64,000 nucleotides of DNA from a virus. The stretch covers positions 1 to 64,000 of IMG/VR virus record IMGVR_UViG_3300027902_000001, one strand, 5' to 3'. The notes under the pieces are model-generated. The model saw only the letters and a program-made list of their open reading frames with translations, did no database searches and was not told where the DNA came from. Within the stretch, counting starts at the first letter, position 1, and every line of letters begins with the position of its first letter. This document shows positions 40,917-58,109 of the stretch, in pieces. The position numbers were made by a program, and so were the translations under genes.

Positions 40917-41660
40917 ATGCCCCACCAACCCCGCTTACCGCGTAAGACGCGCGCCAGAGCGGCCTTCGAGGCCGCCGAAGCCCTGCATACCGTGCAGGAG
41001 GCCGAGGCTGACCTGCCGCCGGAGCCTGCGCCGGACCTGCCGGATGATTACTTCGCGCCGCCCAAGCCGAAACACAACGACCTGGCCGCCCGCTCCACCG
41101 GCGTGCCCACCGGCAGCATCGGCTACATCTCGCCGGTCTACAAAAAGGCCAGCGGTGGGCTGCACCCCGCCTGGGACATGGACGAGGTCATCGCCGCGAT
41201 CCGTCGCTACGAAGGCAACTTGAACATGGCGGCTAAGATGCTCGGCGTCACGCGTCGCATGTTGGACTACTACCGCCGCGACCAACCCGAAGTGCAGGCG
41301 GTTTGCCAGGAAGAATGGGAGAGCCGCCTGGATAACGTCGAGGGCGTGCTCTACAACCGTGCCCTGCACGGCGAAGGTTGGGCGGTGTGTTTCATGCTCA
41401 AAACGCAAGGCCGCGGGCGCGGCTATATGGAGCGAGAAGTCTCGCTCAACATGAAACTGGACTTGAATCAACTCAATGACGAACAACTCAGACGCATCGC
41501 CAATGGTGAACACCCCGCAGTCGTTATGGGCGGTCCGCGCACAAGCGGTGCTGGAAGCGCGGAAACGGGGCCTGACGGAAACGTCGTCGAAGGCGAAACC
41601 CGACTTCTTATGGGAGGCCCTACCGAAGCAGAAGCTGGCGCTACGGAATCCGGCGACTGA
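40917..41660 (+). CDS. terS: Terminase small subunit
   Basis: The 247-residue protein has a Fis-type helix-turn-helix (N-M-A-A-K-M-L-G-V-T-R-R-M-L-D-Y-Y near residue 102), typical of small terminases that recognise packaging sites. It lies between a methyltransferase and the large terminase. Its last 185 bases overlap the large-subunit gene in another frame; that tail is Gly/Glu/Ala-rich. Confidence 0.75.
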   Translation: MPHQPRLPRKTRARAAFEAAEALHTVQEAEADLPPEPAPDLPDDYFAPPKPKHNDLAARSTGVPTGSIGYISPVYKKASGGLHPAWDMDEVIAAIRRYEGNLNMAAKMLGVTRRMLDYYRRDQPEVQAVCQEEWESRLDNVEGVLYNRALHGEGWAVCFMLKTQGRGRGYMEREVSLNMKLDLNQLNDEQLRRIANGEHPAVVMGGPRTSGAGSAETGPDGNVVEGETRLLMGGPTEAEAGATESGD

Positions 41661-43386
41661 ACTGCTCTTTGGCGGGGCCGCAGGGGGGGGTAAGCTTCTT
41701 GACATAACGACGTTATTGCCGACCCCTGATGGGTGGACGACGATGGCTGCCGTGCGGGTCGGCGACTTCGTGCTCGGCTCGAATGGCCAACCTACGGAGG
41801 TGCTGGCGACTTCGGCCATCGACCCCCACCCTAGCGCCTATCAGTTGACCTTCGCCGATGGCGCAGTGATCCGCGCCGATGGCCGGCACAAGTGGCAGGT
41901 CAGGACCAACATAGGTACACTGGTCATTATGACCGCTACCTGGGCCCGCTGGCATGGTACGATGGCGGCTACGCTGCGCCGACCGGACGCCAGCCAGGTA
42001 GCCTTGACGACTATCGAGCGCACCGACGCCGTGCCGATGCGCTGCATCCAAGTTGCCGCCGCCGATGGCGTCTACTTGTGCGGTCCCACCGCCCTGCCGA
42101 CCCATAACAGCGACCTGCTGCTCGGCGCGGCGCGCACCCAACACCATCAGGTGCTGCTGCTGCGCCGCGGCTTCCCCGACCTGGAACGCTCGCTGATCCT
42201 GCGCTCCAGCCAACTGTACGGCAATCCGGCCCTCTATAACGCCTCCAAGCACGTCTGGAAGTTCCCGGACGGTCAGCGCATCGAGTTTGGCCACCTGGAA
42301 CATTTGAAGAACCTCGAAGACTACCAGTCGGCGCAATACGATATGATCGGCTTCGACGAACTGGTGCAGTTCCCCAAAGAGATGTACGTCTACATGCTCT
42401 CCCGCCTGCGCACCACGCGCCTCAACCAACGCGTGCGCGTCGTCTCCTGTACCAACCCCGGCGGCGAAGGCAATGACTGGGTGCTGGAACGCTGGGCGGC
42501 CTGGCTCGATCCTGACTATCCCAAACCCGCTAAGATGGGCGAGGTGCGCTGGTACAAGCTGATCGACGACAAACACGAAGTCGAATGCGACGAAGGCGAC
42601 CCTGACGCCGTGTCGCGCTCCTTCATCCCGGCCTTCCTGTCCGACAACCCCTCCATCGACCTGGCCTACCGCCGTCGCCTGGCCCTGCTGCCGCAGCCGT
42701 GGAAGGATCAACTGCTCTACGGCTCGTGGGCCATCGGCCAAACCGACGACGCGCATCAGATCATCCCGACGCAGTGGATTCGCGCCGCGCAGCAACGCTG
42801 GACGCCCGGCGGGCGCTTGGGCTTTCTGACTTGCCTGGGCTGCGACCCGGCCCACGGCGGCGAGGATCAGACCGTGATCGCGTCGCGTTACGGCTATTGG
42901 CTCGGCGAGTTGAAGAAGACCCCCGGCGTCATGACGCCCAGCGGCACCGCGGTAACCGACCTGCTCGCGCCGCTGCTCAGCCGCGGCGGCTACTGCAACC
43001 TGGACATGGCCTCGATCGGCGCGTCGGCCTACGATGAGGCGGTCAAGCAGAGAATGAACGTCATCGGCTATAATCTCAGCGCACCCTCACAGGCCCTTGA
43101 CAGGAGTGGTAAACTAAGGTTTGTCAACCTGCGCGCTGAGATGTATTGGCGGCTGCGCGAGGCGCTGGACCCCGACAACGAGTTTCCGCTGGCCCTGCCG
43201 CCCGACCCAGAGTTGTCCGGCGATCTGCGGGCGCAACGCTGGCAACTGGAAGTGCGGGGCATTCAGGTCGTCGATAAGGACGACATTCGTAAGACCTTGG
43301 GCCGCTCGCCGGACTGCGGCGATGCGGTGGCGCTGACCATGCTGGAGCCACAACACGTGGCGGGCGGCGTGGGCCGCATCTTCTAG
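41476..43386 (+). CDS. terL: Terminase large subunit with a mini-intein
   Basis: The precursor is 636 residues. Walker A G-G-A-A-G-G-G-K|S is split by a 138-residue intein (residues 74-211). After splicing the protein is about 498 residues with Walker B Y-D-M-I-G-F-D-E, coupling motif S-C-T-N-P-G, and nuclease acids in G-C-D-P-A-H-G-G-E-D, N-L-D and P-D-C-G-D-A. It packages DNA into capsids. Alternative start ATG at 41503. No ribosome site is visible; translation may be coupled to the small subunit, which overlaps by 185 bases. Confidence 0.9.
   Translation: MTNNSDASPMVNTPQSLWAVRAQAVLEARKRGLTETSSKAKPDFLWEALPKQKLALRNPATELLFGGAAGGGKLLDITTLLPTPDGWTTMAAVRVGDFVLGSNGQPTEVLATSAIDPHPSAYQLTFADGAVIRADGRHKWQVRTNIGTLVIMTATWARWHGTMAATLRRPDASQVALTTIERTDAVPMRCIQVAAADGVYLCGPTALPTHNSDLLLGAARTQHHQVLLLRRGFPDLERSLILRSSQLYGNPALYNASKHVWKFPDGQRIEFGHLEHLKNLEDYQSAQYDMIGFDELVQFPKEMYVYMLSRLRTTRLNQRVRVVSCTNPGGEGNDWVLERWAAWLDPDYPKPAKMGEVRWYKLIDDKHEVECDEGDPDAVSRSFIPAFLSDNPSIDLAYRRRLALLPQPWKDQLLYGSWAIGQTDDAHQIIPTQWIRAAQQRWTPGGRLGFLTCLGCDPAHGGEDQTVIASRYGYWLGELKKTPGVMTPSGTAVTDLLAPLLSRGGYCNLDMASIGASAYDEAVKQRMNVIGYNLSAPSQALDRSGKLRFVNLRAEMYWRLREALDPDNEFPLALPPDPELSGDLRAQRWQLEVRGIQVVDKDDIRKTLGRSPDCGDAVALTMLEPQHVAGGVGRIF
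41695..42108 (+). mobile_element. Class 3-type mini-intein in the large terminase
   Basis: The insert starts with Leu rather than Cys or Ser and ends P-T-H-N before Ser. Block A reads L-P-T-P-D-G-W, then V-G-D-F-V-L-G. The block B region has H138-K-W140. Block F has Y-L-C202, and the end has T209-H-N211. The W-C-T trio with a non-nucleophilic first residue is the signature of class 3 inteins, which use the block F Cys. No homing endonuclease domain is present, so it is a splicing-only intein at the Walker A lysine. Confidence 0.8.
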
Positions 43387-43934: not shown

Positions 43935-45449
43935 ATGCCCAACACCGACTCCCGCCAACCCCGCTTCGCCGAGACGAAAGACCTGGTCTCTTTCACCTTT
44001 ACCGCCTGGGAAGACAGCCAGGACTTCCCACCCTGGGGCGATGCGGCCCGCACCTCACGCCTGCGCGCGTTTGCCCGCGAGGAGCCCATCCTGTCCGGCG
44101 CGCTGGCGTCGATGGTCTCTAAGGCCGCTTCCCTGGATTGGGCCGTGACGGGCGGGCGCAACAAGGTGCAACGCTATCAGGAACTGTTCGCCAACGCCTC
44201 CGATGGCGATGGCTGGAACCGCCTGATCGACCAGTGGAGCCAGGACTATCTCTGCACCGACATGGGCGGTACGCTGGAGTTGGCGCGCCAGGGACGTGAG
44301 GGGCCGGTCGTAGACCTCTATCCAGTCGATGCCGCCTGCCTGACGCGCACCGGCAATCGCCAGTACCCCTTCCGCTACTACCCCAAGATCGGCCGCACCG
44401 CCAGCGGCGGCATCCCGTTTGGTCCGCTGGATGTCGCCAACATCGTCGATCTGCCCTCTACCGACGAGACCAAGTTCGGCCTCGGTTTTTCACCCGTCAG
44501 CCGCGCGCTGAAAGCGGCCAGTGTGCTGCTGGCGCTCTACCGCTACGACGCCGAGAAGCTGGCCGACCTGCCCATGCCCGGCCTCGTCACCATGAGCGGC
44601 ATCCTGATGCCGGAACTTGAGGACGCCTTCAAGCTCTACCAGGCCAAGCGCCTGAGCCGCGAACAGTTCGTCTTCAAGTCGCTGCTGTGGTTCGCCTCCG
44701 CGGGCAACCCGCTGGCTAACATCAAGGCCGAACTGATCCCCTTCTCCAACCTGCCCGAAAACTTCGACCGCGGGCAGACCATCTCGCTCTACGTCTACAC
44801 GCTGGCCCTGGACTTCGGCGTCGATGCGCGCGAGTTCTGGCCGGCCACCCAGTCCGGCGCGACCAAGGGCGAGGCCGAGGTGCAGGCGCAAAAGGCCAAG
44901 GGCAAAGGCTTCGGCAGGATGCTCACGAACATGGAGCGCGTCGCCAACTGGCACATCTTGCCGTCCGGCATCGGCTTCGGTTTCGACCGCCGTAATGACG
45001 ACGACGATCTGGCCCGCGCCATCATGGAGGGTCAGCACATCAAGAACATCCGTGCGCTCTGGCAGCCCGATCCCGGCAGTGGCGAAGGCATCATCTCGAC
45101 CGCGGAGGCCCGCCAGCTGGCGATCGAGCGCGGCGTACTGCCGGACTGGATCGACCCCTCGACCTACGGCAAGCTCTACTCGATGGAAAAGGCGGCAGCC
45201 TGGCTGGAGGACGGCGGCGCACCCGGCTACGCCGAGATGAAGTCCTACCTGGGGCCGGGCGAAGACCTGGTGCGCGTGACCCGCTACGGCGCGACCCGCA
45301 CCGTCTGGTCCAGCGCCAAGAGCATCGCCGTCGATTGGCCGCTGGCGGGCGATGTCAATGAGGCCCAAACGTTACGGGGCGCGGCGCAAGAACATCTGCG
45401 GGCCGCGCAGCTGCTCGTCGCGGAGGCGTCCGATGCCGCCGACGACTGA
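43935..45449 (+). CDS. Portal protein (DUF935-like)
   Basis: The 504-residue protein follows the Ntn-hydrolase gene. It has the portal-like order: a mixed N-terminal half with Y-P-V-D and a central helical stem region, then P-G-S-G-E-G-I-I-S-T-A-E-A-R-Q. Position between terminase and head genes and length fit a portal, the dodecameric channel for DNA. Confidence 0.75.
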   Translation: MPNTDSRQPRFAETKDLVSFTFTAWEDSQDFPPWGDAARTSRLRAFAREEPILSGALASMVSKAASLDWAVTGGRNKVQRYQELFANASDGDGWNRLIDQWSQDYLCTDMGGTLELARQGREGPVVDLYPVDAACLTRTGNRQYPFRYYPKIGRTASGGIPFGPLDVANIVDLPSTDETKFGLGFSPVSRALKAASVLLALYRYDAEKLADLPMPGLVTMSGILMPELEDAFKLYQAKRLSREQFVFKSLLWFASAGNPLANIKAELIPFSNLPENFDRGQTISLYVYTLALDFGVDAREFWPATQSGATKGEAEVQAQKAKGKGFGRMLTNMERVANWHILPSGIGFGFDRRNDDDDLARAIMEGQHIKNIRALWQPDPGSGEGIISTAEARQLAIERGVLPDWIDPSTYGKLYSMEKAAAWLEDGGAPGYAEMKSYLGPGEDLVRVTRYGATRTVWSSAKSIAVDWPLAGDVNEAQTLRGAAQEHLRAAQLLVAEASDAADD

Positions 45450-45681: not shown

Positions 45682-45880
45682 TGCGACTGGCCTGCCGCGC
45701 ACGGTCGCGGTGACGCTCTACGAGGAACACTCTGTACTGCGGGCGGAGTGGCATGACGACTGGCCGCTACCACTGCGCCTGACCGTGCCGCCCGGTACGG
45801 TGACGTTCAGTGTCGAGAACGCCCAACGCCTGCTGCGCCTGTTGTTGGACAATGTGCCGACCGGCGAGGATGCCCTATGA
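45668..45880 (+). CDS. Small head-region protein, unknown
   Basis: The 70-residue protein starts at the ATG with GGAGGTATCCCC upstream. It is beta-rich with a final helix (A-Q-R-L-L-R-L-L-L-D). Function unknown. Confidence 0.5.
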   Translation: MSPSDATGLPRTVAVTLYEEHSVLRAEWHDDWPLPLRLTVPPGTVTFSVENAQRLLRLLLDNVPTGEDAL

Positions 45881-46188
45881 GGCTGAGTGATGTCGAGATG
45901 GTGATCATGGGTACGGAGGGTTGGACGCCCCAGGCGGCCCAGGCGTTCTATCAGCAAATCTTGAACATCCTGGTCAATCTGGCGTCGCCGGGCCTGTTGG
46001 GCCACGGCACGGTCACGGCGGAACTGCTCAATGTACGCGACCAGCCTGGTGTCACCGGTAACATCTTGGCTGGCCTGCGCCGGGGGGCCGCCGTCGAAGT
46101 TTGGGGCCGCACGCCCAAGAACAACTGGCTGTGCGTGCGGGCCGGCGATCTGGCCGGTTGGGTCAGCGCCGCCTACGTCCAGGCATGA
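45877..46188 (+). CDS. SH3-domain (SH3b) protein
   Basis: The 103-residue protein has V-T-A-E-L-L-N-V-R-D-Q-P-G-V near residue 46 and G-W-V-S-A-A-Y-V near its end, the classic bacterial SH3 pattern. It could bind peptidoglycan or help head/tail assembly. The stop overlaps an ATG at 46185. Confidence 0.7.
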   Translation: MRLSDVEMVIMGTEGWTPQAAQAFYQQILNILVNLASPGLLGHGTVTAELLNVRDQPGVTGNILAGLRRGAAVEVWGRTPKNNWLCVRAGDLAGWVSAAYVQA

Positions 46189-47332: not shown

Positions 47333-47752
47333 CTATAACTTACCGTGCTCCTTGGCGTGACACCAGTCGCAGAGCACTTTTACGTCCCACCAGTGCTCGT
47401 GCCAGAGCGAGTTGTAATGCAGATGATGAATTTGCAGATGGTGGCGATGGCCGCACGCGGCGCAGGTAGAGTGGGCTAAACGTAAAGCCGCCTGGCGCAC
47501 GCGCTGCCAGTGCGGCGTCAGCAGATAGTCGGCATAGGCCAGCGGTCGAGGGTCTACCCGCTGCTGATCCAGGAGGGGGTTGGGGTCGGGCGGCGGTGGG
47601 GGCGGCTTCCGCTGGCACAGCTTGGGCTTTTTTGGGGGCTTCTCCGCTGGCTTGGACTTACCCGGCTTGACGGGTATACCCACTTTGATCAGCTTCTGCT
47701 CATACTCCGTAAAGCTTGCCTTGAATGCTGGCGAAGGGGTCCTTCTAGGCAT
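47333..47752 (-). CDS. HNH nuclease-like protein
   Basis: The 139-residue protein has a Pro/Lys-rich start. It then has C-A-A-C-G (near 95), L-Q-I-H-H-L-H-Y and L-C-D-W-C-H-A-K-E-H, the zinc-HNH arrangement. It is minus-strand inside a plus-strand block and adjoins the wHTH gene, as mobile HNH genes often do. The start at ATG 47752 has a weak ribosome site. Confidence 0.65.
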   Translation of the reverse strand: MPRRTPSPAFKASFTEYEQKLIKVGIPVKPGKSKPAEKPPKKPKLCQRKPPPPPPDPNPLLDQQRVDPRPLAYADYLLTPHWQRVRQAALRLAHSTCAACGHRHHLQIHHLHYNSLWHEHWWDVKVLCDWCHAKEHGKL

Positions 47753-47760
47753 TACAGGGG

Positions 47761-48729
47761 TCAATTAAGTACCGTGCCCAACGTCGCGCGCCAGAGGCGC
47801 GTCAGCGGCACACCCTTGTGGAGCAACAGCAGCGGCAAGGCGTCACTGTTACGCGCGGTGCGATAGTGCGTACGACTGTCGGGAGCTAACCAACCCAAGG
47901 GCGCGGCGTGGCGGGTCTGATCTGGCGACGACTTAGAGCGTGACAAAGTTTGGCATCTGGTTTCGTCAGGTTGCGGTGCGTGCCGGTGTTGATAGTGGGC
48001 TAATCTTGCGCGGCCGATGGGTGAAGCGGTGCCGACAGTGGGTGTCATGGGGGGTGCATAAGAGTTGGGGCGATCCCACACGACGATGTATTCCCGTTCC
48101 TGGCATTCAGCATGATGATTACAGAGCTTTTCGAGGGTGTTGAAGGCTTGACCACAGCGACAGTGGTATTCGACGTGGCGGTCCGGCATGTCCCTGAAGG
48201 CGCTCGGCGGGGCAAAGGCGAAGTTCTGGCTCACCAGCACGCCGGCCTCCCGCTCCCATTGGCGCAAGGTGTTGCGCGTGACGCCGAAGATGCGCTGCAA
48301 GGCGTCTCGGCTGACCATCTCCGAACGGTCGCCATGCACGTAACGCTGCATGTAGGCGGCGTAACAGTGGGCGTAGAAGTGGCCCAGGTGCGCCAGATCG
48401 GCCAGTGCCAGCGCCACAGCGGGCGCATCGGAAGGCTCGCCGCCCAGGCGTAGCATGATGGGCTTGGCTCCGATCAGGTAGACGTAGCCGTGCCGTTCAT
48501 CCAAGCGCCACCACAGGCCGTCGCCCTTGGCGAGCAAGTTGCTGGCATGGCGCAGTTTGACGTGTAGATGCTCGCCGATGGCGTCCAATAAGACGGCTTG
48601 CGCGATACGCGTGCCGGGCGCGGTAGCCAGGGCACGCGCCAGGAGCCAGACGCGCAATAGCGCGCCTTCACCGGCTCGGTGGGCGGCTGGCATTAGGTCT
48701 GGCGGTAGCTTTACTTGGGGCACGTCCAT
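47761..48729 (-). CDS. Winged-helix zinc-finger protein, possible initiator
   Basis: The 322-residue protein has a helical N-terminal half. Residues near 140-165 carry V-S-R-D-A-L-Q-R-I-F-G-V-T-R-N-T-L-R-Q-W, an HTH. A C2H2-like finger follows (C-R-C-G-Q-A-F-N-T-L-E-K-L-C-N-H-H-A-E-C near 192-211). The last 60 residues are basic. An 11-bp iteron array starts 27 bases upstream of its start codon, which suggests an autoregulating initiator or repressor. No ribosome site is visible. Confidence 0.55.
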   Translation of the reverse strand: MDVPQVKLPPDLMPAAHRAGEGALLRVWLLARALATAPGTRIAQAVLLDAIGEHLHVKLRHASNLLAKGDGLWWRLDERHGYVYLIGAKPIMLRLGGEPSDAPAVALALADLAHLGHFYAHCYAAYMQRYVHGDRSEMVSRDALQRIFGVTRNTLRQWEREAGVLVSQNFAFAPPSAFRDMPDRHVEYHCRCGQAFNTLEKLCNHHAECQEREYIVVWDRPNSYAPPMTPTVGTASPIGRARLAHYQHRHAPQPDETRCQTLSRSKSSPDQTRHAAPLGWLAPDSRTHYRTARNSDALPLLLLHKGVPLTRLWRATLGTVLN

Positions 48730-48755
48730 GAGGATACACCGATGCGGACAAAGTT

Positions 48756-48872
48756 CACGACACTAACCTGACGATTTCCTGACATTTAGCTGACGCGTAT
48801 GATTTGTTGACACCAAAAGTTACAGCTTGCTGACGCCAGTCTGACAATCAGCAGACATGCAGCAGACAAAAC
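48756..48872. repeat. Array of 11-bp iterons (NCTGAC)
   Basis: GAC-containing hexamers start at 48756, 48767, 48778, 48789, then 48829, 48840, 48851 and 48862, all 11 bases apart within each block; the blocks are linked by two less perfect units at 48806 and 48818. Most read CCTGAC, GCTGAC, TCTGAC or GCAGAC. The helical spacing puts all units on one DNA face. Iterons of this kind bind initiator proteins at replication origins or regulators at promoters. Confidence 0.7.
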
Positions 48873-48893
48873 GCCCGACCTATAGGTCAGGCG
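48867..48893 (-). terminator. Rho-independent-type terminator of the island operon
   Basis: Minus strand: CGCC-(T)-GACC-TATA-GGTC-(G)-GGCG forms an imperfect hairpin followed by TTTT. The stop of the 48887-49129 gene lies inside the stem. It ends the leftward three-gene operon before the iterons. Confidence 0.65.
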
Positions 48894-49129
48894 ATCTTGT
48901 ACATGGTGACGACTTGTTCAGCTTGCGGCACGACGATCTCGCCCTTGATCAGCAGATGCGCGCCTTCGGGCCAGTAGCCGGTATCCGAGCAATCATCATC
49001 TGGCAAGGCTGATAGGAATTGAGGGTGATCGCCGTAATCGCCAGCGCCGATGTCTCTGGCGAGCTTGCCAGGATCAATCCGTTCGACATAGGTGTCGCCG
49101 TCACTGTTCCAGATCAGAAAGTAGGTCAT
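48887..49129 (-). CDS. Small acidic protein, unknown
   Basis: The 80-residue protein has AAGGAGC before its ATG. It contains P-D-D-D-C-S-D-T-G-Y near residue 43. The stop overlaps the terminator. Function unknown. Confidence 0.5.
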   Translation of the reverse strand: MTYFLIWNSDGDTYVERIDPGKLARDIGAGDYGDHPQFLSALPDDDCSDTGYWPEGAHLLIKGEIVVPQAEQVVTMYKIA

Positions 49130-49452
49130 GGTTGCTCCTTCGTGTGCGTCTTGACGATATGCACGCGCAGCCCGCGCGCTGTGTCGAAGCGATTACTCTT
49201 GCCCTGGCAGGCCGGCAGGCGGCACTCGTACTTACCCCGGTGATTGGGGATATGGCGGGCAAGCCCAAGCAGGTTGACGGACGCGTGGCAGATGGGGCAG
49301 ATGACAGTCGGCACTTCGGGCGGCACGATGTAGTAGTCGTCAGCCAGCCAATCGTTGACGACCTGCGCGCCGTACTTGCGCTTGGCGGCCTTGTAGATGG
49401 CGGCCACCATGTCAGCTTCGCGTGCGAGTTGGATGTGTGACGGGATGGTCAT
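49126..49452 (-). CDS. C2H2 zinc-finger protein
   Basis: The 108-residue protein has two zinc-finger-like units: C-P-I-C-H then H-I-P-N-H (near 52-70), and C-R-L-P-A-C-Q-G-K-S-N-R-F then H-I-V-K-T-H (near 77-103). Such C2H2 fingers are rare in phages. It is likely DNA- or RNA-binding and lies next to a possible initiator. GGAGA precedes the ATG. Confidence 0.65.
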   Translation of the reverse strand: MTIPSHIQLAREADMVAAIYKAAKRKYGAQVVNDWLADDYYIVPPEVPTVICPICHASVNLLGLARHIPNHRGKYECRLPACQGKSNRFDTARGLRVHIVKTHTKEQP

Positions 49453-49679
49453 AGCTCGGTCTCCGCGGGCGCGATGATGCTGAATTCGTAGCCTGGGCCG
49501 AGTATCACGTACTTGTTGTCAGGGAACAGCATACGCATCAGCTTCTCGGTTTCTGCGAGGTCAAATAGTCTCAGCGTGCGAGGCGTCTTTAGCACGATCA
49601 CGTCGCCAGGTTCCAGATGCAGGCGTTGGACATCGCCGATGTAGCGCAGCGGCGGGTTGGGGGATGGCTGATCGTTCAT
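49449..49679 (-). CDS. Small protein behind a structured leader
   Basis: The 76-residue protein is beta-rich with V-I-V-L-K-T-P. Its ribosome site GCAGGAG is 12 bases before the ATG and can pair with upstream leader sequence. It is first in the leftward island operon. Function unknown. Confidence 0.5.
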   Translation of the reverse strand: MNDQPSPNPPLRYIGDVQRLHLEPGDVIVLKTPRTLRLFDLAETEKLMRMLFPDNKYVILGPGYEFSIIAPAETEL

Positions 49680-49840: not shown

Positions 49841-49869
49841 ATCTTACAGCGTTTCTCTGATCTTGTCAA
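49841..49869 (-). promoter_or_regulatory. Leftward sigma70-type promoter of the island operon
   Basis: Minus strand TTGACA (49869-49864), 17 bases and TAAGAT (49846-49841). It is the only strong promoter for 49679-48887 genes and lies back to back with a rightward TATAAT at 49877-49882. Confidence 0.65.
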
Positions 49870-49882
49870 GTGGGTATATAAT
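49860..49882. promoter_or_regulatory. Repeated promoter-like element, copy 1
   Basis: ATCTTGTCAAGTGGGTATATAAT matches the element at 50557-50579 at 20 of 23 positions. It contains the palindrome CTTG-T-CAAG and ends with TATAAT 5 bases before the head-gene ATG at 49888, so that gene may be translated from a leaderless message. Confidence 0.5.
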
Positions 49883-49887
49883 AAGTC

Positions 49888-50535
49888 ATGCCTACCACGC
49901 GTCTCCCCGCTTACATCTTCGACCGCCGCATGTTTGGCGGTGGCCGCTACCGTCGCCTGCTGCCGGATGGCCGCCTGGGCGCGCTGGTCTCGCAGCGCGA
50001 GCTAGAAGCCGGGCTGCGCGAAATCGCCCTGCGCGCCGAGACGACGCTGGCCGATCTAGCCGAGGACGTGCTGGCGGGGCGACTGCTGCCCGCCGACTTC
50101 CAACAGGCGGGCCAGTACATTCTGAAGCATCTCTACAACGCCTACTCGGCTCTCGCGCGCGGCGGTTGGGCGCAGATGGACTTCGCCGCGTGGGGGGCAA
50201 ACGGTCAAATTTTACGAGGAGAATATCGCCTACTCGCAAAATTTTCGGCAGAGTTGGCGCAGGGTGAAATGTCGGTTGCGGCGGCCCGCGCCCGCGCTAT
50301 GCTGTATGTCGGCAAAGCCTACAGTCGCTACTGGGCTGAAGATCGCGTGCTGAAGCTCACCAGCGGCGCGTTCACCGAGGAGCGTTGGGAGGACACCAAG
50401 GGGCCGCAGGAATGTGTGGATTGTCTGGCTTTAGCGGCTTTAGGTTGGGTGCCCATCGGGACATTCAACACCGTACCCGGCGCAGGTGGCACCAAATGTG
50501 GCGGGGCCTGCTACTGCCGTATCCGCTATCGCTGA
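49888..50535 (+). CDS. Head morphogenesis-like protein
   Basis: The 215-residue protein has a helical body and a C-terminal segment C-V-D-C-L-A-L-A-A-L-G-W-V-P-I-G followed by C-G-G-A-C-Y-C-R-I-R-Y, a Cys-rich ending common in minor capsid/head morphogenesis proteins. No ribosome site; TATAAT lies 5 bases upstream, so leaderless initiation is possible. It is the first plus-strand gene after the inserted island. Confidence 0.6.
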   Translation: MPTTRLPAYIFDRRMFGGGRYRRLLPDGRLGALVSQRELEAGLREIALRAETTLADLAEDVLAGRLLPADFQQAGQYILKHLYNAYSALARGGWAQMDFAAWGANGQILRGEYRLLAKFSAELAQGEMSVAAARARAMLYVGKAYSRYWAEDRVLKLTSGAFTEERWEDTKGPQECVDCLALAALGWVPIGTFNTVPGAGGTKCGGACYCRIRYR

Positions 50536-55073: not shown

Positions 55074-55130
55074 GAATAATGCGGGATAGTGGACGCCGGT
55101 CGGGCGGCGATGGATAGGAGCAGTACAATA

Positions 55131-58109
55131 ATGTCACAATTTTTTACAATCAAACCGCTCACAGCCGCTGAGTTTGAGGCGCCCGAAGCCAATGATGGGC
55201 AAGTCCTGACAGCAGACGGTGCGGGTAAAGCAATCTGGGAGGATTCTACAGGTGGCGGCGCAGGCGTCACGGACGTGACCTATGCGGAACTGGTCGCGGC
55301 CATCGGCGCAGACGCACTGACTCCGGGGGGCTGGTATCGGATCACGGACTACGCCACTACACATTACATCGTAGACGGCGACGGCACCATCTACACGTCG
55401 CCGGTCGCGCAGGTAGACACCGTCACATTGAGCGGAACCAGCGGCACGGCCACGATTGACGTAGTCGGCGGCTTGAGCAAACTGGCGACATTCGACGGCG
55501 ACCTGGAGACTACGGCGGCCAACTTTGTGACCGACTGGGCCGCCGCCTACCTGGCAAACCCGATTCGCGTTGTCGTTACGTCTTCCGGCCCTGACATCAT
55601 CTTCACCGCCGAAGTTCCCGGCACAGCGTTTGATCGACCCACCATCGCGAACGTTTCCGGCGACTTGGGGCTGGCAGTCGCACAGGTTGACACGCTGACG
55701 TTGAGCGGCACGGACGGCAGCGCAGAAATCACCATTGACAGCGTGGTGCGCAGCATCACATTTACAGACGACCTGGCCACCACCGCAGAAGATTTCTTCA
55801 CGGCGCACGCAACCGCCTACGCAGTGCTCGGCATCATTCTCGCCAACAGCGACGCCGACCTGATCTTTACTGCCGTCGCACCCGGCACGCCCTTTACGTC
55901 GCCAACCATAACCAACCTCGACGGTTCCCTGGACGGCACAGTTGATCCCACCGAAACCAACCAGGTAGCCGCAATCAGCATGCACACCACCGCCAACGAT
56001 AACCCCGTCATCGTCGGTGAGACTGAGCCGCTGCTCGTACTGGCCACCGCCACCGATCAAATCGACGGGCAGGTATACTCCGTCTTGCACCCGGAAGACC
56101 AGATCAGATATGACTGGAACCCGGATAACTGGCTGTATGACCTTTCGTTCTGCGAGGACCAGGCTACCATCATCGCAGGTTGGAAGGGCGTCATCGTGTT
56201 CCGTTGGGACACCACCTTTGACAATTACGCCGGGTACGACTGGCGCAACGTCCTATTCCGCAGGTGGCAGACGGATGCAGAACCGTGGGACGCCGACGCG
56301 GGGTATTCTGCAGGCAGCATCGTGAACTACGGAGGAGTCACTGGGGGCGTCTACCAGGCCATGTTTGACATCCCCGCGAGTGAAGCGCAGATCCACACCG
56401 TAACACTCACCGGCACGGTCGGCTCCGCCACCATCGACACGGCCGGCGGCTTGTCGAAACTGCTCACGTTCGCGGATGACCTGGAGACGACAGCCGGCGA
56501 CTTTGTGACGACCTGGCAGGACGATTACCTGCTGCAAGGCATCGTCGTCACAGCGAGCAGCGCCGATTTGATTTTCACGGCCCTGATTCCCGGCACGGCC
56601 TTTGACGCGCCGACCGTCAACAATCTGACCGGCGACCTCTGCCTCGCCGTCGCGCAGGTGGAGACGTTGACGCTCACCGGCACGGACGGCACCGCGGACA
56701 TTTCGGCAGCCGGAGGATTGACGCGAACAGCGACGTTCGCCAGCGACCTGGGAACCACGGCCGGCAACTTCGTCACGGCCAACGCGGCAGCCTACCTGGT
56801 CGAACACATCGTGCTGACCAGCAGCGGCGCAGACTTGATTTTCACCGCCGAAGTTCCCGGCACAGCGTTCGTGCCGCCAGTCATCGAAAACGCAACCCTG
56901 TCCCTGGACGGCACGGTAGACCCAACGACACCGAACAATCCCGCGCCGACAATCGCGCCGGCCCACGCCAACGTGCCGCCAAACAGCGACCCGGCAACGG
57001 ACACCGCCAACTGGATCAAGTTGCTCGCTCTGTCCAGCATCCAGAATTGGAACGCCGAACCGTCATCCTGGTTGGGTGTGCCATCGGCAACGCAAGAATT
57101 TGCCGACTACATCACATTCAAGTATGACGATCCATTCAAAAATTACATTCGCGGCAACCATCTTGAGCCGATGCGCGACGACGCCAACTACTGGAATGAC
57201 ATAGCCACGATCCTATCCAATAATGTACTACTCGGCGCGAACACGTACGCCAACGTGCTCGGCGCGGGCGCGAACTCCAACGTGCTCGGCGTGGGCGCGT
57301 ACTTCAACGTGCTCGGCGCGGGCGCGACCTCCAACATGCTCGGCGCGGGCGCGAAATCCAACGTACTCGGCGCGAACACGTACGCCAACGTGCTCGGCGT
57401 GGGCGCGCAGTACAACGTGCTCGGCGCGGGCGCGCAGTACAACGTGCTCGGCGCGGGCGCGCAGTACAACGTGCTCGGCGCGAACACGTACGCCAACGTG
57501 CTCGGCGTGGGCGCGCAGTACAACGTGCTCGGCGCGGGCGCGCAGTACAACGTGCTCGGCGCGAACACGTACGCCAACGTGCTCGGCGCGAACACGTACG
57601 CCAACGTGCTCGGCGTGGGCGCGCAGTACAACGTGCTCGGCGCGGGCGCGCAGTACAACGTGCTCGGCGCGGGCGCGTACTTCAACGTGCTCGACGTGGC
57701 CGCGTACGCCAACGTGCTCGGCGCGAGCGCGCAGTTCAACGTGCTCGGCGTGGGCGCGACCTCCAACATGCTCGGCGCGTACGCGACCTCCAACATGCTC
57801 GGCGCGGGCGCGAACTTCAACGTGCTCGGCGCGAACGCGAACTACAATGTGCTCGGCGCGAACACGTACGCCAACATGCTCGGCGCGGGCGCGAACTTCA
57901 ACGTGCTCGGCGCGAACGCGAACTACAATGTGCTCGGCGCGGGCGCGCAGTACAACGATTTTGCTCCCGGTGTCATGGACCTCGACTGCACCCTGGGAAC
58001 CCACGTCTACGCCGCCTACCAATGCTGGATTGCAGTCGACAACACGCTCGGCGCACGGCTGCGCTACTATGACAACGATACGGTAGTCTTTGCCGACCCA
58101 ACTGCCTGA
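55131..58109 (+). CDS. Large fibre-like protein with domain repeats and a nonapeptide solenoid
   Basis: I chose ATG 55131 with AGGAG upstream; the protein has 992 residues. Residues of about 90-640 hold four related units of some 85-90 residues, each with L-x-L-S/T-G-T and D-L-E-T-T-A or similar, then I-F-T-A and V-P-G-T-A-F. Residues 699-941 are 27 tandem nonapeptides (N-V-L-G-x-x-x-x-x), likely a beta-solenoid. The end is a compact domain. It lies with head genes but looks like an adhesion or decoration fibre. No signal peptide is present. Confidence 0.65.
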   Translation: MSQFFTIKPLTAAEFEAPEANDGQVLTADGAGKAIWEDSTGGGAGVTDVTYAELVAAIGADALTPGGWYRITDYATTHYIVDGDGTIYTSPVAQVDTVTLSGTSGTATIDVVGGLSKLATFDGDLETTAANFVTDWAAAYLANPIRVVVTSSGPDIIFTAEVPGTAFDRPTIANVSGDLGLAVAQVDTLTLSGTDGSAEITIDSVVRSITFTDDLATTAEDFFTAHATAYAVLGIILANSDADLIFTAVAPGTPFTSPTITNLDGSLDGTVDPTETNQVAAISMHTTANDNPVIVGETEPLLVLATATDQIDGQVYSVLHPEDQIRYDWNPDNWLYDLSFCEDQATIIAGWKGVIVFRWDTTFDNYAGYDWRNVLFRRWQTDAEPWDADAGYSAGSIVNYGGVTGGVYQAMFDIPASEAQIHTVTLTGTVGSATIDTAGGLSKLLTFADDLETTAGDFVTTWQDDYLLQGIVVTASSADLIFTALIPGTAFDAPTVNNLTGDLCLAVAQVETLTLTGTDGTADISAAGGLTRTATFASDLGTTAGNFVTANAAAYLVEHIVLTSSGADLIFTAEVPGTAFVPPVIENATLSLDGTVDPTTPNNPAPTIAPAHANVPPNSDPATDTANWIKLLALSSIQNWNAEPSSWLGVPSATQEFADYITFKYDDPFKNYIRGNHLEPMRDDANYWNDIATILSNNVLLGANTYANVLGAGANSNVLGVGAYFNVLGAGATSNMLGAGAKSNVLGANTYANVLGVGAQYNVLGAGAQYNVLGAGAQYNVLGANTYANVLGVGAQYNVLGAGAQYNVLGANTYANVLGANTYANVLGVGAQYNVLGAGAQYNVLGAGAYFNVLDVAAYANVLGASAQFNVLGVGATSNMLGAYATSNMLGAGANFNVLGANANYNVLGANTYANMLGAGANFNVLGANANYNVLGAGAQYNDFAPGVMDLDCTLGTHVYAAYQCWIAVDNTLGARLRYYDNDTVVFADPTA
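57225..57953 (+). repeat. 27 tandem 27-bp repeats inside the fibre-like gene
   Basis: The 729-bp block encodes 27 nonapeptides. Most start AACGTGCTCGGC; variable codons give endings such as AGAQY, ANTYA, VGAQY, AGATS and NANY. Several neighbouring units are identical, a sign of recent duplication or gene conversion. It could change length readily, as in phase-variable receptor-binding proteins. Confidence 0.85.

Follow-up and report, generated by a model that had tools for sequence, protein, structure and literature searches.

A phased 11-bp direct-repeat array beside an orphan putative DNA-binding protein gene in a virus record is a candidate autoregulatory operator

What is a run of short repeats, all facing one way and set one helical turn apart, doing in a gap between genes of a phage-like genome? 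Inverted repeats are the usual targets of bacterial regulators; a long series of direct repeats with one-turn spacing suggests that protein assembles head-to-tail and that switching is sharp. Such an array lies in the 64,000-nucleotide window examined here (the window being the whole stretch of DNA that was analysed), which belongs to a virus record of 73,495 bp. The original prediction had read the array as resembling either a plasmid-type origin or a strong autoregulatory site, next to a gene for a winged-helix, zinc-finger protein and unexpectedly placed within head genes. We asked what the array consists of, what surrounds it and which of several functions it would best serve.

The sequence and the motif positions confirmed an 11-bp array on the plus strand at 48756-48872. 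Block A (48757-48800) comprises a degenerate ACGAC at 48757 followed by CTGAC at 48768, 48779 and 48790, and block B (48830-48873) comprises CTGAC at 48830 and 48841 followed by CAGAC at 48852 and 48863. Steps within both blocks are exactly 11 bp and every unit has the same orientation, including a TTGAC at 48807-48811 on the plus strand that is out of phase with both blocks: it lies 17 bp past 48790 and is rotated on the helix by about 257 degrees relative to block A. Of the eight or more phased units originally claimed, the two blocks and their exact 11-bp spacing hold up, but only seven units are strictly phased, or eight (4+4) if the degenerate ACGAC is counted; TTGAC at 48807 drops out, and the step from block A to block B (48790 to 48830) is 40 bp, which is no multiple of 11. 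If the helix is taken to turn once every 10.5 bp, block A falls at 343-34 degrees and block B at 326-17 degrees, placing both within about 70 degrees of one helical face, with only the unit at 48807 off it. The core is near-invariant, with G, A and C present in 8/8 of the CTGAC, CAGAC and TTGAC units, while the spacers have diverged, a pattern that differs from a fresh tandem duplication. Three or four units on one side and four on the other flank the 29-bp gap between the blocks, and on the minus strand the units read TGTCAG. The array as a whole occupies a promoter-sized intergenic gap of 157 bp. An Rfam search gave no match, and the low energy of the RNA fold includes the strong terminator-like hairpin described below.

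The record looks like a fragment of a lytic phage. Its leftward block encodes DnaB (15101-16450) and RusA, and its rightward late block encodes a DNA methylase (39453-40910), a Fis-type HTH protein (40917-41660) and TerL (41476-43386), continuing with a weak portal match (43935-45449) and, further on, glycosyltransferases. A gene for a bacterial SH3-domain protein (45877-46188) follows the portal-like gene and precedes later head genes, and the major-capsid-like protein had no relatives in IMG/VR or phage records. The described location within head genes is partly right, in that the array has a terminase and a weak portal match upstream of it, but it is inside a five-gene reverse-strand cassette (47333-49679) and not between head genes of one strand. 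The first unit of the cassette, running from 49679 to 48887, encodes proteins of 76, 108 and 80 aa. The 108-aa protein (49126-49452, minus strand) carries two C2H2-like finger motifs that fall below cut-off, making it an alternative candidate for binding the array, and a search for its relatives found none; the 80-aa reading frame that closes the unit (48887-49129, minus strand) matches no family. The second unit consists of a 322-aa gene (48729 to 47761) followed by a gene for a 143-aa HNH-endonuclease-like protein (47764 to 47333, minus strand; phrog_119, E 1.2e-4), and because the HNH gene overlaps the end of the 322-aa gene, the two probably form one operon. Between the units the order is a minus-strand terminator-like hairpin, the array and then the start codon of the 322-aa gene, which lies 27 bp away from the degenerate ACGAC at 48757. 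The claim that the array follows a terminator agrees with the sequence, where an intrinsic-terminator-like hairpin that would end the upstream three-gene unit is seen at 48893-48872 on the minus strand, but shuffles yield such hairpins about as often (2 found, 2.0 expected).

The 322-aa product (47761-48729, minus strand) is a putative DNA-binding protein, judged from weak matches and a low-confidence model. It reached the cut-off of no Pfam, PHROG or NCBIfam family. Below threshold, it matched a MerR HTH (E 0.022, residues 146-165, below the curated cut-off), the small-terminase PHROG 57 (E 0.032, residues 135-167) and a Ros zinc-finger regulator (E 0.053, residues 178-242), in keeping with a MerR/Nu1-like HTH at about residues 141-165 and a zinc-finger-like CRC..HHAEC at about residues 186-208. 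A single-sequence AlphaFold model had a mean pLDDT of 38, too poor for a fold search; its finger region folded as strand-helix with a pLDDT of about 77, and its N-terminus was predicted with low confidence as helix-helix-strand-strand, that is, helix-helix-wing. The protein looks like one with two HTH motifs and one zinc finger. The description of a winged helix plus a zinc finger is plausible from the weak matches and the better-modelled finger region, but with a mean pLDDT of 38 it is not proven. Searches of IMG/VR, of GTDB genomes, of plasmids and phage records and of 36 virus records related by TerL found no relatives.

How would the second unit be transcribed? No consensus promoter for it was found in the array region. 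The top minus-strand promoter score there (8.2) belongs to a weak, sigma-70-like promoter element, TTGTCA-19-TAACTT or TTGTCA-17-TGTAAC (48817-48847, minus strand), whose 19-bp spacer is non-optimal and whose -10 is poor. Its putative -35 lies in block B, with the -10 placed between the two blocks, so that block A would fall just downstream of the start point. A plus-strand promoter-like element at 48775 (score 9.5) overlaps block A. The upstream unit of the cassette has a near-consensus promoter, TTGACA-17-TAAGAT (49841-49869, minus strand). This promoter belongs to a pair of overlapping divergent promoters at 49841-49888, in which TTGACA-17-TAAGAT points leftward and a TATAAT at 49877 stands directly before an ATG at 49888, an arrangement that suggests a leaderless start.

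The reading that we prefer, at a probability of about one half, is that the array is the operator of the second unit, bound most likely by the 322-aa product and serving negative autoregulation. A DNA-binding protein, most likely that product, would occupy the CTGAC/GTCAG units head-to-tail in two blocks on a single face of the DNA, each helical turn taking one molecule or half-dimer. Block B would span the -35 region and block A would lie at and past the start point of the weak promoter, so filling both blocks would block polymerase and shut the promoter; the outcome would be cooperative negative autoregulation with a sharp threshold. That the upstream unit has a near-consensus promoter and the downstream unit only a weak one overlapping the array supports an operator. 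The suggestion of a strong autoregulatory site thus fits the anatomy (terminator, array, start codon of a putative DNA-binding protein, -35 in block B), while we infer that the promoter exists, which protein binds and that it represses.

Two known systems favour the operator reading by their resemblance to the array. In plasmid R388, StbA binds the stbDRs, 9-bp repeats that stand 2 bp apart (an 11-bp period) and lie in two sets of five around the stbABC promoter (PMC3098194). The likeness lies in two sets of direct repeats with an 11-bp period around the promoter of the binder's own gene, both promoter and binder being putative here; the differences are the unit (TTGCATCAT in R388, CTGAC here), the five plus five repeats and the setting in a plasmid stbABC operon. 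The parC site of plasmid R1 likewise has two sets of five repeats (PMC4949242), and it shares with our array two blocks of 11-bp direct repeats, here with a promoter-sized gap between the blocks, but differs in its 5+5 block size. As it stands, the array would be a fairly ordinary, if unproved, operator, and its best explanation is an ordinary one: a further case of an 11-bp direct-repeat operator, beside an unusual orphan putative DNA-binding protein. If the 322-aa protein is the binder, a new architecture of two HTH motifs and a zinc finger joins a small class, and does so in a phage cassette that also encodes an HNH nuclease.

The binder might be a different protein. The second candidate in the cassette, the double-zinc-finger protein, counts against the 322-aa product, and together with the plus-strand element at 48775 it leaves room for other readings. 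Binding by that protein, or by a host response regulator of the OmpR/PhoB type acting as an activator, is on balance unlikely. Pho boxes usually have two to four units, and their core in E. coli is CTGTCAT. The minus-strand TGTCAG units come near this core, and an activator would suit the lack of a good -35/-10 in the downstream unit. Sites of OmpR/PhoB-type regulators are typically 11-bp direct repeats, as in the PHO boxes of S. coelicolor and the M. tuberculosis PhoP site TCACAGC-n4-TCACAGC (PMC9019756), and the array shares with PHO boxes its 11-bp direct repeats on one face and a TGTCA-like core. Seven to eight units are, however, more than the Pho box usually has, the spacers of block B are not AT-rich, and no matching response regulator was identified.

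A doubtful alternative is that the array arose by chance or is a decayed tandem duplication without present function. We scored arrays by a statistic that called for three or more exact 5-mer pairs together with five or more pairs of at most one mismatch inside 100 bp, and took 1000 dinucleotide shuffles of the genome as the null model. At period 11 the statistic was equalled in 1/1000 shuffles, which argues against chance, but when all periods from 8 to 15 were allowed, 15/1000 equalled it, which gives chance some support; a lone four-unit block is unremarkable, its score of 18 being matched in 32/100 shuffled genomes. Given the shuffles and the location in the 157-bp intergenic gap, the array is real, with modest statistical strength. 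Similar patterns do occur in other virus contigs, a point in favour of chance or decay: a scan for CTGAC arrays returned 35 stretches against 23 for a reversed control motif, most of them simple tandem duplications, and no family was common to their neighbouring genes. On these grounds we rejected them as relatives, and the scan gave no evidence for a widespread CTGAC system. The array differs from such tandem duplications in its diverged spacers and conserved core, its two blocks on one face and its promoter-sized gap. A search of phages for similar DNA found none. Within the 73,495-bp record, no second CTGACx3 array was found, and a position-weight scan of the whole record returned no second multi-unit site for the array motif, its nearest match being a minus-strand pair at about 68094; with no comparable array elsewhere in the record, the site appears local to the 322-aa gene. 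At 68050-68095 of the record, a pair of TTGACA 11 bp apart lies upstream of a minus-strand TATAAT, and apart from the array no further intergenic pair is strong by the unit's weight matrix.

We regard as quite improbable a role for the array as a replication origin built of iterons or as a pac/cos recognition site for packaging. The P1 pac site has 4+3 short repeats flanking the cut, and the units flanking the 29-bp gap recall that layout; the array also lies within the late region at a distance of 5 kb from the large terminase gene, and the 322-aa protein has its weak small-terminase HTH match. But a better TerS candidate exists in the Fis-type HTH protein, encoded directly before TerL, and the array adjoins a reverse-strand gene rather than TerS. 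As for an origin, no Rep initiator was found among the neighbours or among the families listed for the 82 ORFs of the record (25 of the 26 from Pfam, 25 of the 77 from PHROG), and DnaB is encoded about 33 kb away. No DnaA box lies near the array (the record's only match is at 36516), nor does an AT-rich stretch, GC there having a minimum of 40% over 60 bp. A change of GC skew nearby had been proposed as a check; cumulative skew has its extremes at 34.6 and 59.5 kb and not at 48.8 kb. With no Rep, partition or integrase family among those listed, the plasmid-type origin was rejected on content. A repeat-rich, AT-richer divergent region at 38.4-38.7 kb weighs against this alternative as well. 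In this area, the divergent early/late intergenic region at 38600-38726 holds CCACGTGA(T/G)CGCC-type units at intervals of about 16-17 bp and GTGAGCGACAG three times at 11 bp, and it is a stronger candidate than 48.8 kb for an origin or control region.

Still less probable is a partition or DNA-anchoring site, a centromere in the manner of stbDR or parC, with the 322-aa protein as adaptor in a plasmid-like phage state. ParR is a small ribbon-helix-helix protein that works with the ParM actin. In architecture these sites come closest to the array: two blocks of short direct repeats with an 11-bp period, in a promoter upstream of an adaptor gene. R388 StbA, moreover, has no need of its ParA-like partner StbB for stabilisation (PMC3098194). 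However, the matches listed for the 82 ORFs included no ParA, ParM, TubZ, Rep or integrase family, which makes a partition site less likely, and the likeness of the record to a lytic phage fragment tells against it too. Downstream of the array no StbA-family protein was found, with no StbA homology detectable in Pfam, PHROG or NCBIfam; no sequence relation to ParR was detected, and neither the neighbours nor the families listed contained a match to a ParM actin-like ATPase with ParR beside the array. Least probable of all is that the 322-aa protein, as a phage-encoded fusion of two HTH domains with a Ros-like finger and of neither StbA nor ParR ancestry, assembles head-to-tail on the 11-bp CTGAC repeats both as a single-protein complex for segregation, nucleoid anchoring or packaging and as an autoregulator.

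Two other repeats were observed in the window. A 27-bp coding repeat of about 26 copies occupies 57231-57957 within a 1006-aa ORF (55089-58109), and at 36954-36988, where the DNA appears to be non-coding, CTCACGTGC recurs every 9 bp for about four copies.
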